64,000 nt of DNA, taken from the NCBI RefSeq assembly GCF_000746255.1, contig NZ_JQKW01000010.1:1-64000 (forward strand), in the 5' to 3' direction. Every line of letters begins with the position of its first letter. Position 1 is the stretch's first letter. Of this stretch, positions 12,007 through 21,833 are shown in pieces. This stretch comes from Thermodesulfobacterium hydrogeniphilum. GTDB lineage: Bacteria > Desulfobacterota > Thermodesulfobacteria > Thermodesulfobacteriales > Thermodesulfobacteriaceae. The notes under the pieces are model-generated. The model ran no database searches. It was not told where the DNA came from and was given only the letters and a program-made list of their open reading frames with translations. The translations under genes and the position numbers were made by a program.

Positions 12007-13098
12007 ATGGCAAGATTAGATCCCTTTTTCAAATTAATGATAGATACTCAGGCTTCAGATCTTCATCTTTCCGCAGGGAATCCCCCTCTTTTAAGAGTTC
12101 ATGGAGATTTACAGAAGGTAAAATATAAAATTTTAGAAGATGAAGAACTTAGAGAGATGCTTTATGAAATTGCTCCAGAGGAAATAATTAAAAAATTTGA
12201 AGAAGATGGGGAGGTTGATTGGGGATATGAGATTCCTGGTTTAGCAAGATTTAGAGTTAATTATTTTAGACAAAGAAAAGGTGTAGCAGCAGTTTTCAGG
12301 CTTATTCCAAATAAAATTAAAACAGTTGAAGAATTGGGTTTACCATCTTTGCTAAATAAATTAGCTTTACTTCCAAGAGGACTTATTTTGGTCACAGGTC
12401 CTACAGGTTCTGGTAAATCCACTACCTTAGCTGCAATTATAGATTATGCTAATAGAATGCGCTATGATCATATTATTACTATAGAAGATCCTATAGAATT
12501 TGTTCATGAACCTAAGAATTGCTTAGTTAATCAAAGAGAATTAGGGACTCATACTAAAAGCTTTTCCAATGCTTTAAGAGCAGCTTTAAGAGAAGATCCT
12601 GATATTATATTAGTTGGAGAAATGAGAGATCTGGAAACTATAGCCTTAGCTTTGGAAGCATCTCTTACAGGCCATTTGGTATTCTCTACTTTACATACTA
12701 TCTCTGCTGCTCAAACTGTAAGCAGAATTATAGAAGTCTTTCCTCCAGAAGCAAGAGATCAAATAAGAATGTCCTTATCTGAATCTTTAAGAGCAGTAAT
12801 TTCTCAAACCATGTTTAAAAGAATAGATAAACCTGGAAGAATAGTTGCTTTAGAAATAATGATAGCAACTCCCGCTATCAGAAATCTGATAAGAGAAAAT
12901 AAAATTCATCAGATACCTTCTATGATTCAGACAGGTAAAAAATATGGTATGATGTCCTTAGATGATTGTATAATGGATTATCTTAAAAAGGGCTGGATCA
13001 GCCCAGAAGAAGCTTTTATTAAATCCATAGATAAAACCAGATTCTTACCTTATGTGCAAAATAAAGAAGCTATTGATTTTACAGAAATGCCTGGTTAA
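12007..13098 (+). CDS. pilT: Type IV pilus retraction ATPase PilT
   Basis: PilT is the hexameric ATPase that depolymerises type IV pili and powers twitching motility. The 363 residues carry the PilT-type N-terminus ASDLHLSAGNPPLLRVHG, Walker A GPTGSGKST (131-139), Walker B-type ILVGEMRDLET and the His box TGHLVFSTLHT. A second PilT-like gene follows after 2 bases, and a small gene of unknown role comes third. The start shown lacks a ribosome site but sits only ~10 bases after the -10 box, and no better start exists downstream. Confidence 0.93.
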   Translation: MARLDPFFKLMIDTQASDLHLSAGNPPLLRVHGDLQKVKYKILEDEELREMLYEIAPEEIIKKFEEDGEVDWGYEIPGLARFRVNYFRQRKGVAAVFRLIPNKIKTVEELGLPSLLNKLALLPRGLILVTGPTGSGKSTTLAAIIDYANRMRYDHIITIEDPIEFVHEPKNCLVNQRELGTHTKSFSNALRAALREDPDIILVGEMRDLETIALALEASLTGHLVFSTLHTISAAQTVSRIIEVFPPEARDQIRMSLSESLRAVISQTMFKRIDKPGRIVALEIMIATPAIRNLIRENKIHQIPSMIQTGKKYGMMSLDDCIMDYLKKGWISPEEAFIKSIDKTRFLPYVQNKEAIDFTEMPG

Positions 13099-13100
13099 AA

Positions 13101-14252
13101 ATGCTTACTGAATTAGAAATTAAAGAATTATTACATAGGTTGGCTTTTTTAGAACCCGGGATTTCAGATATTTTCATTTTATCAGGTTATCCTTTTCAAG
13201 TAATGGTTTATGGCAAGATGAAATCTGTATTTTTTGAAGATTTTCCAGTAGAGGCTCTTACACCTTTTCAAACAGAAGTTATAGCTTTTAATATGATTAA
13301 AGATAGACCTTATCTTTATACCAAACTTATTAAAGATGGATATGCTGATTTTTCTTATGCCTTAGATGACGAAACAAGATTCAGAGTAAATATCTTTTCC
13401 CGTCAGAAGACTTATAACATTATAATGCGTAAACTTGATAGTAAAGTTAAATCTATAGAAGAATTGGGATTACCTAAAATTTTTTATAAGATTGCTAAAG
13501 AAAAATATGGAATTATTTTAGTAACAGGAGCTACAGGTCAGGGTAAAACTACTACTTTAGCAGCTATTTTGCATGAGATTAATAAGAACAATTCTGTACA
13601 TATTCTTACCTTGGAAGATCCTGTAGAATATATTCATAAACCTATAAAAGCAACTGTTAATCAGAGAGAGCTGGGAACAGATTTTAGTTCTTATGCAGAG
13701 GGTCTAAGAGCAGCTTTAAGGCAGGCTCCTCATGTTATTCTGGTTGGGGAAATCCGTGATAGAGAAACCATGGATATAGCTTTAACAGCTGCAGAAACAG
13801 GACATTTAGTATTTTCTACTTTACATACTATAGGAGCTTCTCAAACTATCAACAGAATTGTAGGTTTTTATCCCTTAGATGAGGAGCATCAAATAAGACA
13901 AAGAATAGCTGCAACTTTAAAATGGATTGTTGGGCAAAAGTTATTGCCCAAGGTTGGTGGAGGAAGAATCCCTGTTTTTGATATTTTGTATAATAATTTA
14001 AGAGTAAGAGAAATAATTTTAACAGGGGAATCCGAGGGAAAAACTTTGTATGATGCTATGACCCAGGGTGGTCCTTTTGGAATGCAGACATTTGATCAGC
14101 ACCTTATAGAGCTATATAAAAAAGGTTTGATAGATGAAGAACAGGCTCTATATCATTGTTTAAGAAGAGATATAGTAGGAAGACAGATAGATCTTATTAA
14201 AAAAACAAAAAGGAACTCTTTCTATGGAAGAAATAACTTTAGAGCTTGGTGA
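13101..14252 (+). CDS. PilT/PilU-like type IV pilus ATPase
   Basis: This second retraction-type ATPase of 383 residues resembles PilU more than PilT. Walker A is GATGQGKTT, the Walker B region is HVILVGEIRDRETMD, and the His box TGHLVFSTLHT is conserved. The N-terminal domain is PilT-like, but ASDLHL is replaced by ISDIFILSGYPFQVM. PilU-type partners usually act only together with PilT, which fits the 2-base spacing between the two genes. The last ~15 residues (KKTKRNSFYGRNNFRAW) are basic and may reflect a drifted terminus. Assignment as pilU itself is probable, not certain. Confidence 0.85.
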   Translation: MLTELEIKELLHRLAFLEPGISDIFILSGYPFQVMVYGKMKSVFFEDFPVEALTPFQTEVIAFNMIKDRPYLYTKLIKDGYADFSYALDDETRFRVNIFSRQKTYNIIMRKLDSKVKSIEELGLPKIFYKIAKEKYGIILVTGATGQGKTTTLAAILHEINKNNSVHILTLEDPVEYIHKPIKATVNQRELGTDFSSYAEGLRAALRQAPHVILVGEIRDRETMDIALTAAETGHLVFSTLHTIGASQTINRIVGFYPLDEEHQIRQRIAATLKWIVGQKLLPKVGGGRIPVFDILYNNLRVREIILTGESEGKTLYDAMTQGGPFGMQTFDQHLIELYKKGLIDEEQALYHCLRRDIVGRQIDLIKKTKRNSFYGRNNFRAW

Positions 14253-14264
14253 TAAAGGAGTCAA

Positions 14265-14729
14265 ATGGTAAACAATACTTATAAAGATTATCTTATAGAA
14301 AAACCTTTATGTTTGATATTGTGGAATTTGGACTCTTCTCCTGATAGTATTATTGATTTTTTTAAAAATAAAAAAGACCTTGAAATCAAAGAAATTAAAA
14401 ATACAGAGAACTTAGAATATTGGCTTAAGATTTCCAGAGTAGAAAATATAATTTTAGGAATTAAAAATTTAGAAGAAGGTAAAGATATACAAGAATATAT
14501 AAACAAAAAATTACCTATGGAAAAGAGAAGAGAAATAAAGTTGATTTATATTTTACCAGAAGCAAAGACCTTAGATCCTAAGGAGACCTTTTTATTAAGT
14601 GCCAATTTGGTTGTTTCAGAAAAACATCTGTCAGATATAGAGAAAATATACGAGAGAGCTGAACAATATTGGATTTTTCTTTATAAAGATTATAAGAGAG
14701 CTTTTTCAAAATATTTGGAAACTCTTTAA
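14265..14729 (+). CDS. Hypothetical protein of the pilT cluster
   Basis: I do not recognise this 154-residue protein. It has alternating hydrophobic strands and charged helices (CLILWNLDSS, ENIILGIKN, KLIYILPEA, NLVVSEK), consistent with a small Rossmann-like or receiver-like alpha/beta fold. No phosphoacceptor Asp in a DxxxPxxDG context is seen. There is no signal peptide or membrane segment. It starts 12 bases after the second pilT-like gene, with AAAGGAG upstream, so it is probably in the same operon and could regulate pilus retraction. That role is a guess from position. Confidence 0.6.
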   Translation: MVNNTYKDYLIEKPLCLILWNLDSSPDSIIDFFKNKKDLEIKEIKNTENLEYWLKISRVENIILGIKNLEEGKDIQEYINKKLPMEKRREIKLIYILPEAKTLDPKETFLLSANLVVSEKHLSDIEKIYERAEQYWIFLYKDYKRAFSKYLETL

Positions 14730-18030: not shown

Positions 18031-19668
18031 ATGATTAAAAGTTCCAGAATAAAATTTGAAAAGATATCAATTTCCAAAGCTTCTTTTTCTTTTGAAAGTT
18101 TTAAATTAAAACCTGTAGAACTGGAAGATTATTTAGATGAATATATAGTAGGTCAAAAAGAAGCTAAGGCAATTATTTCAACAAAAATTTGTACGCATTT
18201 TCATAAGATAAAATTTATTATAAATGAAAGGATAGATGATCATAGTGAATTTATCAAAAACAATATTCTTATCATTGGTCCCACAGGTGTAGGCAAAACT
18301 TATATGATGAAACTTATTGCCAAAAAATTAGGTGTTCCTTTTGTCAAAGGAGATGCAACTAAATTTAGCGAAACAGGTTATGTAGGAGGGGATATAGAAG
18401 ATTTAATTAGAGAACTATATTGGGAAGCTAATGGAGATCTGGAAAAAGCCCATTTTGGTATAATATTTTTAGATGAAATAGATAAAATAGCTTCTGCTGG
18501 AGAAACAATAGGGCCTGATGTTTCAAGAACAGGAGTTCAAAGAGCTTTATTAAAACCTTTAGAAGAAACCAATATTGAAATTAAAATTCCTCAAGAAGGA
18601 TACGGAGTTTTTGAATTTCATGAAACTTCTGAAAAAAGAAGAAAGAAAAAATTAATTTTGAATACTAAATATGTTCTTTTTATTGCAAGTGGTGCTTTTC
18701 AAGGATTAGAAGAGATCATAAAAAAAAGATTAAAAAAACAAAACATGGGATTTATTTCAGATATTGTAGTAAAAGAAGATATAAAATTAAATTATTTAAA
18801 ATTAACTACCCCTGAAGATCTGGTAACCTATGGGTTTGAAAGAGAATTTGTAGGAAGATTTCCTGTAATTGCTATCTTTGATCCACTTACAGAAGAAGAA
18901 CTTTTTAGCATACTGTCTAATCCAAATAATCCTATTATACTTAATAAAAAGAGAGATTTTAAAGTTTATGGAATAGATATAGCTTTTACAGATGGAGCTT
19001 TGCAAGAAATAGCAAAACTTGCTTATAAGGAAAATACAGGTGCCAGAGCTTTATCAAGAGTTATGGAAAAAATTTTGGTTCTTTTTGAAAGGGTTTTGCC
19101 ATCCAAAAGTATAAAATATTTGGGTATTACTAAAGAGATAATAAAAGATCCAGAGGGAAGTTTGGCTTCTATTTTAAACTCTCCCAGAAATTTCAAATGG
19201 AAAGAAGATTATTTAAAAGCCTTAGAAGATGAGAAAAAAAGAGTAGAATCATATATTAATAAAAAAACACATCTATTTGGTGATGAAAAATTTGAGCTTA
19301 CTTCTAAAAGATTAAATTTGATTTTTGAGATCTATAAAGGAAAAGATATAGAATTGAATAAAGCCTTAGAAGAAGTTTTATTTTTGTGGAAGCAGATTAA
19401 AAATTATGAAAAGACTTTTGAAAGAAAAAAAGGTATTAAATTAGTTTTTACAGAAGAAAGCATAGATTTTATTTTAGAAGAGGTTATAAAAAAAGATTGG
19501 GGGATTTTTGCCTATTGCGAAAAGGTAATGTCAAGGTTAGAATATATTTTTAATTATATGAAAGATGTTTTGGAAGAAAATGTATTTCATATAACACCTT
19601 TAGCTTTAAAAAAACCTAATAAGTATTTGGAAAATTATTTAAAAGAGATTAAATCGCAAGAGAGATGA
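18031..19668 (+). CDS. ClpX-like AAA+ unfoldase without zinc-binding domain
   Basis: This is a ClpX-type ATPase of 545 residues. The Clp/HslU opening (DEYIVGQKEAK, 36-46), Walker A GPTGVGKT (83-90), pore loop GYVG (116-119) and Walker B IIFLDEIDK (144-152) are all present, as is a segment aligned with the ClpP-docking IGF loop (QNMGF, MGF at 239-241). The N-terminal zinc finger that ClpX uses for substrates and adaptors is missing. Instead there is a ~150-residue C-terminal extension rich in charged helices. It could therefore feed ClpP with a different substrate set. The next gene, a degenerate receiver protein, overlaps it by 4 bases and may be an adaptor. HslU is less likely because the I-domain is absent. 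Confidence 0.85.
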   Translation: MIKSSRIKFEKISISKASFSFESFKLKPVELEDYLDEYIVGQKEAKAIISTKICTHFHKIKFIINERIDDHSEFIKNNILIIGPTGVGKTYMMKLIAKKLGVPFVKGDATKFSETGYVGGDIEDLIRELYWEANGDLEKAHFGIIFLDEIDKIASAGETIGPDVSRTGVQRALLKPLEETNIEIKIPQEGYGVFEFHETSEKRRKKKLILNTKYVLFIASGAFQGLEEIIKKRLKKQNMGFISDIVVKEDIKLNYLKLTTPEDLVTYGFEREFVGRFPVIAIFDPLTEEELFSILSNPNNPIILNKKRDFKVYGIDIAFTDGALQEIAKLAYKENTGARALSRVMEKILVLFERVLPSKSIKYLGITKEIIKDPEGSLASILNSPRNFKWKEDYLKALEDEKKRVESYINKKTHLFGDEKFELTSKRLNLIFEIYKGKDIELNKALEEVLFLWKQIKNYEKTFERKKGIKLVFTEESIDFILEEVIKKDWGIFAYCEKVMSRLEYIFNYMKDVLEENVFHITPLALKKPNKYLENYLKEIKSQER

Positions 19669-20024
19669 TTTTTTTAGCACTTTCAGAAAAATTATTTAAT
19701 AAAATTAAAGATATTTTAGAAACTCATAAAATAAAATATAAACTTATAGAAGATGGAGAAAGTTTGCTTAAATTGGCTAAAAAGGAAAAGCCAGAATTAA
19801 TAATTTTAGAAAAAGACATACCTCTTTTAGATGGTTTTGCTACTACGCTTTTATTAAAATCAGATAAAGATACCCAAGATATACCTATTGTTGCCATCTG
19901 TAAATCCAATTTTAAAGAAGAGGAAATAAAGGCTAAGGATAGTGGTTGTGATGAGATAATCAATTGTCCTATTGATGAGGAAAAATTTTGGGAAAAAATA
20001 GAAAAATATTTAAAAAAGAAATAA
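19665..20024 (+). CDS. Stand-alone pseudo-receiver (CheY-like fold) protein
   Basis: The 119 residues follow the receiver fold (LIILEKDIPLLDGFATTLLL aligns with the LIILDxxxPxxDG segment), but the phosphorylation machinery is gone. The acidic pair after strand 1 is missing (FLALSE), the phosphoacceptor Asp is Glu, the Thr after strand 4 is Cys (VAICKS) and the Lys of strand 5 is Cys (INCPID). It is therefore likely a constitutive protein-protein module. The ATGA overlap with the ClpX-like gene implies coupled translation. RssB, a receiver-domain protein, delivers sigma S to ClpXP in E. coli, so an adaptor role is plausible but inferred. Confidence 0.8.
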   Translation: MIFLALSEKLFNKIKDILETHKIKYKLIEDGESLLKLAKKEKPELIILEKDIPLLDGFATTLLLKSDKDTQDIPIVAICKSNFKEEEIKAKDSGCDEIINCPIDEEKFWEKIEKYLKKK

Positions 20025-20042: not shown

Positions 20043-21227
20043 ATGATAGGAATTTCTAAGTTATATTGTGGAACTATAGAAGCTTCGGATCCCTTGAGAT
20101 ATGGGAGAAAATCTAAAAATCTTCCATCTCATCTTTTGCAGTTTTCTGCAGATAAAAAGCCTGTAGTGGTATGGAATGTTACCAAAGCTTGCAATTTAAG
20201 ATGTATTCACTGTTATGCAAAAGCAGATCCCAATCCAGCTCCTGATGAACTCACTACAGAAGAGGGTTTTAGACTTTTGGAAGATTTAGCTCAATTTGGT
20301 TGTCCTGTGGTTCTTTTTTCTGGTGGAGAACCTTTGGTTAGACCCGATATTTTAGATCTTATTAAAAAAGCTACCTCTCTTGGTATGAGAGCAGTTCTTT
20401 CTACTAATGGTGTCCTTATAGACGAAAATTTAGCTAAGGAATTAAAAAAATTGGGGCTTTCTTATGTGGGAATAAGTCTTGATGGGGGAAGAGAGGTTCA
20501 TGATAGGTTTAGAGGGGTAAAAGGTGCTTTTGATAAAGTTATCTCTGCTATAGAGGCTTGTAAAAAAGAAAGTTTAAAAGTAGGACTTAGGTTTACTATA
20601 AACAAGCTTAATGCTCAGGAAATTCCCAAAATTTTTGATCTTGTTGAGGAGATGGAAATCCCTCGTATATGTTTTTATCATTTAGTTTATGCAGGAAGAG
20701 GAACTAAATTGGTAGAAATGGATCTGTCCCATGAAGAAACTCGTTATTGGGTAGATTATATTATAGATAGAACAAAAGAAATACATGATAAAGGTTTAAA
20801 AGTGGAAGTTCTTACTGTGGACAATCACGCTGATGGACCGTATCTTTATTTAAGAATGAAAAGAGAAGGCAATCCCAGAGCAGAAGAGGTCTATGAGCTT
20901 CTTAAGATGAATGGAGGAAATAATAGTGGAGTTGGAATAGGCTGTGTTTCTTGGAATGGAGATGTTCATGCTGATCAATTCTGGCGTCATTATTCCTTTG
21001 GAAATGTAAGAGAAAGGCCTTTTAGTGAAATTTGGATGGACACTTCTGATCCATTAATGGCTAAACTTAAAGAAAAGAAAAAGCATGTGAAAGGTAGATG
21101 TGCTAAGTGCAGATTTTTAGAAGTTTGTGCAGGTAATTTCAGAGTTAGAGCCGAAGCTGTAACAGGAGACGTTTGGGCTCCTGATCCTGCCTGTTATTTA
21201 ACAGATGAAGAAATAGGAATAGCTTAA
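20043..21227 (+). CDS. ahbC: 12,18-didecarboxysiroheme deacetylase (radical SAM, AhbC)
   Basis: AhbC removes the acetate side chains of didecarboxysiroheme to give Fe-coproporphyrin III in the siroheme-dependent haem pathway of sulfate reducers and archaea. The 394 residues begin MIGISKLYCGTIEASDPLRYG, a family hallmark. They then show the radical SAM cluster CNLRCIHC, the SAM-binding GGEP, and a C-terminal SPASM-like Cys set (GCVSWNGD; GRCAKCRFLEVCAGN). The related AhbD lacks this N-terminus. No other haem gene is in the window, so the pathway must be completed elsewhere. It has a GGGAGG ribosome site. Confidence 0.9.
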   Translation: MIGISKLYCGTIEASDPLRYGRKSKNLPSHLLQFSADKKPVVVWNVTKACNLRCIHCYAKADPNPAPDELTTEEGFRLLEDLAQFGCPVVLFSGGEPLVRPDILDLIKKATSLGMRAVLSTNGVLIDENLAKELKKLGLSYVGISLDGGREVHDRFRGVKGAFDKVISAIEACKKESLKVGLRFTINKLNAQEIPKIFDLVEEMEIPRICFYHLVYAGRGTKLVEMDLSHEETRYWVDYIIDRTKEIHDKGLKVEVLTVDNHADGPYLYLRMKREGNPRAEEVYELLKMNGGNNSGVGIGCVSWNGDVHADQFWRHYSFGNVRERPFSEIWMDTSDPLMAKLKEKKKHVKGRCAKCRFLEVCAGNFRVRAEAVTGDVWAPDPACYLTDEEIGIA

Positions 21228-21242: not shown

Positions 21243-21833
21243 ATGAGCAAAATTGGAAGGGCTTTGATAAGTGTTACTGATAAAACTGGAATCGTTGAAT
21301 TTGCTAAAGAACTTCAGAATTTAGGAATTGAAATTGTTTCTACAGGTGGAACAGCAAGAGTTTTAAGAGAAGGGGGAGTAAAAGTAATTGATGTTTCAGA
21401 ATTGACAGGATTTCCAGAAATTTTAGAAGGAAGAGTAAAAACTCTTCATCCTAAAATTCATGGTGGTATCCTTTTTAAGAGAGATAAAGAAGATCATGTA
21501 GAAACTATCAAAAAGCATGAGATAAAGCCTATAGATTTAATAGTTGTTAATCTTTATGCCTTTGCCAAAGTGGTAGAAAAAGGAGCTGATCTTGATACTG
21601 CTATAGAAAATATTGATATAGGAGGTCCTACTTTAATCAGGGCTTCTGCTAAAAATTTTAAATATGTTACAGTAGTAGTAGATCCATCAGATTATTCTAA
21701 GGTTCTTGAAGAAATCAAACAATATGGGAATACTACTTTACAAACCAGATTTGAATTAGCTAAAAAGGTTTTTAAGCTTACCAGTGAATATGATAAAATG
21801 ATTTATGATTATCTTTCTAAAATCCAGCTTTGA
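21243..21833 (+). CDS. purH: IMP cyclohydrolase (N-terminal half of PurH)
   Basis: It closes the purine ring, converting FAICAR to IMP. The 196 residues match only the MGS-like cyclohydrolase domain of Pur[46 protein letters not shown] and the NLYAF segment are clear. The C-terminal AICAR transformylase domain (~300 residues) is absent, and the frame ends normally with no remnant after it. The formyl transfer must be done by a separate protein. The stop TGA overlaps the aroD start (TGATG). It has an AAAGGAGGG ribosome site. Confidence 0.92.

Follow-up and report, generated by a model that had tools for sequence, protein, structure and literature searches.

Many anaerobic bacteria carry a second ClpX-type unfolding machine besides the normal ClpX. 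We describe it from a 64,000-nucleotide stretch of the Thermodesulfobacterium hydrogeniphilum genome (hereafter the window), where the unfoldase gene overlaps a gene for a free-standing receiver and a heme-synthesis gene follows. It is a real and conserved variant of the ClpX-type unfoldase that has apparently gone undescribed; the literature that we searched holds no account of such a family. We tentatively read it, at somewhat less than an even chance, as a ClpP-competent unfoldase that serves tetrapyrrole enzymes specifically and that, in some lineages, has a phosphorylation-independent receiver as its adaptor. The open reading frames of the two proteins, as read in the window, their features and the heme gene that follows are:

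18031..19668, + strand: ClpX-type AAA+ unfoldase paralogue, 545 aa
18277..18300, + strand: Walker A, GPTGVGKT, aa 83-90, identical in 107 of 111 aligned members
18376..18387, + strand: pore-1 loop, GYVG, aa 116-119, in 111 of 111 aligned members
18466..18483, + strand: Walker B, FLDEID, aa 146-151
18568..18666, + strand: longer segment in place of the ClpX RKH-loop region, 30-31 versus 20 residues
18745..18753, + strand: ClpP-docking tripeptide, MGF, aa 239-241, [ILMV]GF in 111 of 111 members
18937..19158, + strand: first AAA+ small (lid) domain, aa 303-376, which carries the sensor-2 motif TGAR
19183..19383, + strand: helical linker, about aa 385-451; members from other phyla have a shorter one
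19384..19638, + strand: second small (lid) domain, degenerate and without the sensor-2 motif, about aa 452-536
19665..19668, + strand: ATGA overlap of the unfoldase stop and the receiver start
19665..20024, + strand: free-standing pseudo-receiver, 119 aa
19809..19811, + strand: codon for Glu49, at the phospho-Asp position of the receiver
19899..19901, + strand: codon for Cys79, at the Thr/Ser position of the receiver; Cys in 14 of 15 aligned receivers and in the sixteenth (G156)
19965..19967, + strand: codon for Cys101, at the conserved-Lys position of the receiver; residue variable in the family
20043..21227, + strand: ahbC, 12,18-didecarboxysiroheme deacetylase (radical SAM); TIGR04546, 716 bits, cut-off 650

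A paralogue alongside ordinary ClpX

The window's genome also holds an ordinary zinc-domain clpX, immediately 3' of clpP (G000:C5). The window gene is therefore a paralogue, and the possibility raised in the preliminary description, that it is simply the clpX of this genome, was rejected. The same genome has one clear copy of clpP, as well as hslUV and a ClpB-type gene. The paralogue falls below both ClpX family cut-offs (294 bits against TIGR00382, cut-off 371; 317 bits against NF003745, cut-off 359) and, with 175 bits against the HslU model (cut-off 362), also lies outside the HslU clade. Its best structural matches were all ClpX. Coexistence is general in the genomes that we checked: ClpX scored above its family cut-off in 12 of 12, of which 11 carry the paralogue, and the 11 paralogues themselves scored 249-319 bits against the cut-off of 371.

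Of 198 genomes from the phylum, 96 contain a relative alignable over the full length at 43-70% identity, which excludes chance. A search of public genomes added members, most of them in metagenome-assembled genomes, from records whose titles name Poribacteria, KSB1, Gemmatimonas, Latescibacterota, Zixibacteria, Calditrichaeota, Fermentibacteria and Verrucomicrobia. We then compared 30 sequences in a tree, where the paralogues, ClpX and HslU each formed one clade (supports 99/98, 100/97 and 100/100), with the paralogues sister to ClpX and not inside its clade; the window row sits on a long branch. Judged from this sequence tree, the paralogue is an old clade separate from ClpX. A phage origin was also considered and set aside, as one scan of viral contigs found no relative, which is weak evidence given the short patterns used.

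Motor motifs and the C-terminal extension

The paralogue shares with ClpX the AAA+ core, the GYVG pore loop, an IGF-type ClpP loop, the Arg finger and sensor 2; it differs in its separate clade, the absent zinc domain, the replaced RKH-loop region and a second lid. The Walker motifs, GYVG and MGF that the preliminary description reported are all present in 18031-19668, and we also identified the Arg finger (EFVGR) and sensor 2 (TGAR). Across the 111 aligned members, GYVG, [ILMV]GF and the sensor-2 GAR are without exception, and the docking tripeptide is kept by the 25 members outside Desulfobacterota as well. Because the tripeptide is conserved in such strongly diverged proteins, it argues for a working contact with ClpP.

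The loss of the zinc domain was likewise borne out: we found no CxxC in the first 80 residues of the window unfoldase, and only 1 of the 111 members has one there. In the paralogues that we measured, the region corresponding to the RKH loop spans 30-31 residues versus 20 in ClpX. An N-terminal helix motif seen in the alignment of most Desulfobacterota members is missing in the window lineage.

The preliminary description put the C-terminal gain at ~150 residues, and we measured about 170 beyond the normal C-terminal lid; the nature of this extension, like the link to heme genes below, was not part of that description. Profile comparison shows that the extension duplicates the AAA+ small (lid) domain. 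The C-terminal region aligned with the normal small domain at 97% probability (E 1e-10), with 80 columns in colinear order, and the C-terminal profile reached 92.8% against the small domain of ordinary ClpX, with a maximum of 1.7% among 60 column-shuffled controls. When the extensions from other phyla were aligned separately, their match was 96.8% to the normal lid and 99.8% to the extension of Desulfobacterota members. A structure model of the extension alone (mean pLDDT 93) had ClpX and HslU small domains as its best PDB matches, covering residues 72-156 of the model (about aa 452-536 of the window unfoldase), with Z up to 7.5 and an rmsd of about 2.1-2.5 over 72-78 residues. For the lid assignment we rely on the sequence profiles, because the Foldseek E-values for this model are weak alone (0.05 and above) and a Z below 8 can reflect a common arrangement. 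Given the profile and structure comparisons, we rejected a new fold for this region. The TGAR motif is absent from the second copy. We know of no other ClpX or HslU with a duplicated lid.

Heme genes and other neighbours of the unfoldase

The ahbC gene after the receiver in the window belongs, by its TIGR04546 match, to siroheme-dependent heme synthesis, and the window's genome contains ahbC, ahbD and hemB. This neighbourhood is conserved: among the 68 genomes having both genes, 47 (20 families) have ahbC as the next gene downstream and in the same orientation, where chance placement would give about 0.03 such cases, and hemB lies directly downstream of the unfoldase in 9 further genomes. If a locus counts as heme-linked when ahbC or hemB comes straight after the unfoldase or straight after its receiver, the link is present in 56 of the 96 genomes and covers 28 of the 41 families. 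A direct heme-gene neighbour is missing in 40 of the 96 paralogue genomes, with some contigs ending nearby. The frequent order is unfoldase-ahbC-hemB-ahbD, followed in some genomes by an ahbA/B-type gene. These are the genes and the order of the AhbC-HemB-AhbD-AhbA/B operon, which genomes without the paralogue retain without any unfoldase. The presence of the unfoldase and of ahbC is associated (Fisher p = 3e-4, uncorrected for phylogeny), and 46 genomes carry ahbC without the paralogue. Upstream of the unfoldase the genes vary by family, with priA in the window's order and ntrYX-like genes, named by inspection, elsewhere. The closest named relative sharing the window's gene order is a record labelled Thermodesulfobacterium (L134). 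We looked for a C-terminal tag on AhbC shared among, or specific to, unfoldase genomes and saw none, and our literature search found no paper treating ClpX together with ahbC.

We also made several side observations on gene content in the window and at other loci. In the window, 21243-21833 encodes a PurH cut down to its IMP-cyclohydrolase part (196 aa), which covers 59 of 311 AICARFT model positions, below the family cut-off, and is kept across the window's order. A pair of neighbouring pilT-family ATPase genes (12007-14252) is followed by a 154-aa open reading frame (14265-14729) without a Pfam or NCBIfam match, kept between the second pilT and the next gene in relatives with the window's order. 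At seven loci (L050, L052, L053, L055, L061, L062 and L068), a DnaJ/CbpA-type co-chaperone gene, and not heme genes, comes after the unfoldase. At L046-L048, L102, L110, L117 and L120, the upstream genes encode a DUF4390 protein, an NtrY-like kinase and an NtrX-like regulator, preceded at some of these loci by a further conserved gene. In Poribacteria (L137, L138, L139, L141, L147 and L151), the unfoldase belongs to a conserved cluster whose other genes encode a LarA-like isomerase, a protein resembling methionine synthase, a product that partly matches the chlorite-dismutase family and GldF/GldG-like transporter components.

The heme neighbourhood could reflect a shared promoter and not shared substrates if the paralogue were a general stress unfoldase that handles damaged or aggregated proteins as a second ClpX. 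We consider this somewhat unlikely. It would suit families f9, f12, f21 and f22, in which dnaJ/cbpA (named by inspection) lies directly 3' of the unfoldase, and the other phyla, in most of which we found no heme link around the unfoldase. It would also recall Myxococcus xanthus ClpX3 (MXAN_2743), an extra ClpX without N-domain and RKH motif that is required for growth at 36 C (PMC11423568); ClpX3, encoded by an isolated gene, is a possible member of the clade. However, the heme genes stay downstream over 28 families while the upstream genes change, and receiver genomes in the 198-genome sample are heme-linked in 11 of 11 cases.

ClpX control of heme synthesis is documented best in mitochondria. 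There, ClpX activates ALA synthase through partial unfolding (PMC7077987). Both systems thus connect a ClpX-type unfoldase with heme synthesis, although the link here is gene neighbourhood only, the bacteria have the siroheme-dependent pathway and the ClpP loop is kept. The mitochondrial precedent (PMC7077987), together with the operon that the unfoldase shares with cofactor enzymes, would also fit a pure remodelling chaperone that degrades nothing and supplies AhbC/AhbD (Fe-S/SAM), HemB or a PLP enzyme with cofactor, as mitochondrial ClpX does with ALA synthase. This seems improbable to us, as a ClpP-independent chaperone would find the [ILMV]GF tripeptide superfluous, yet all 111 members keep it.

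The pseudo-receiver and a possible role in heme synthesis

The receiver matches PF00072 (44.8 bits, cut-off 30.2). As the preliminary description stated, it is free-standing, overlaps the unfoldase gene by 4 bases (ATGA, 19665-19668) and has Glu49, Cys79 and Cys101 in place of Asp, Thr/Ser and Lys; its N-terminal acidic pair is also lost. Adjacent receivers occur in families f1, f2, f49, f56, f62 and f66 and at five further public loci. Among 16 receivers, the phospho-site residue is Glu in ten Thermodesulfobacteria, Arg in five others and Tyr in one, with Asp in 0 of 16, and all but one have Cys at the Thr/Ser position.

When the 198 genomes were scored with a receiver profile, the ten best matches (149-171 bits) all adjoined the unfoldase; the next scores were at 95 bits, and one of these, from G156, adjoins it as well. 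A second profile, from receivers outside Thermodesulfobacteria, placed the unfoldase-linked receiver top in 7 of 7 held-out Thermodesulfobacteria genomes, at 67.7-98.3 bits versus 60.9 bits or less for any other receiver. Because these profile tests single out the unfoldase-linked receivers, the receiver is one orthologous partner, retained in some lineages and absent in most. We found no close match away from the unfoldase in unfoldase genomes, with up to 22 candidates scored per genome. We conclude that the pseudo-receiver partner is ancient but optional. The dedicated pair proposed in the preliminary description thus holds in part, since the two genes are an old pair, kept together, and the receiver is found only beside the unfoldase. 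However, we detected no adjacent receiver in 85 of the 96 unfoldase genomes, so the unfoldase is not built around its receiver partner.

That description also likened the receiver to RssB and called it always on. RssB docks on the ClpX zinc domain via its own C-terminal PP2C domain, its receiver domain alone gives no crosslink to that zinc domain, and a ClpX that lacks the zinc domain is unable to use RssB (PMC7226468). Here too a receiver domain is associated with a ClpX-type protein, but the zinc domain and the PP2C effector domain, both of which RssB needs, are absent, and on these docking parts the analogy fails. An always-on state agrees with the Glu of the window lineage, given the strong activity of RssB D58E, and disagrees with the Arg or Tyr of four families, given that D58K is weak (PMC7226468); phosphorylation-independent is the safer wording. 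An always-on, RssB-like unfoldase-adaptor pair, although in keeping with the Glu, the 4-base overlap and the exclusive adjacency, is therefore very unlikely, given the two missing domains, the Arg or Tyr at the phospho-site in other families and the many unfoldases without an adjacent receiver.

By analogy, a closer precedent than RssB would be CpdR, a single-domain receiver that docks on the ClpX N-domain. In Caulobacter, unphosphorylated CpdR primes ClpXP (PMC8865702). Both are free-standing receivers tied to a ClpX-type unfoldase, here by genetic linkage, but the window-type receiver never has the phospho-Asp, and its unfoldase has no zinc N-domain to dock on.

Returning to the ClpP-competent unfoldase that we tentatively favour, we infer a hexameric-type AAA+ protein of the ClpX-related clade that would share the one ClpP of the cell with ordinary ClpX. 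It may have given up the zinc domain, the general adaptor platform, and the RKH-loop region in favour of its own substrate-selecting parts, including the second lid. At least in Desulfobacterota, it would unfold one or more tetrapyrrole or heme-synthesis enzymes, whether for degradation or to gate cofactor loading. In six families, the pseudo-receiver, whose gene lies after that of the unfoldase and ahead of the heme genes, may bind the unfoldase and serve as a phosphorylation-independent adaptor or regulator. A bacterial counterpart of the mitochondrial control of ALA synthase by ClpX, in which the duplicated-lid unfoldase gates or removes siroheme-dependent heme enzymes and a phospho-dead receiver is the adaptor in several lineages, is possible, and we advance it with more reserve.

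To our knowledge, the regulation of the siroheme-dependent heme pathway in sulfate reducers has been little studied. The position of the unfoldase at the head of heme genes suggests an undescribed protein-unfolding step in bacterial heme synthesis. An unfoldase leading ahb/hemB operons makes the bacterial use of a mitochondrial-type principle testable, and the duplicated lid and the strictly linked pseudo-receiver offer concrete parts with which hexamer assembly and substrate choice may be tested.
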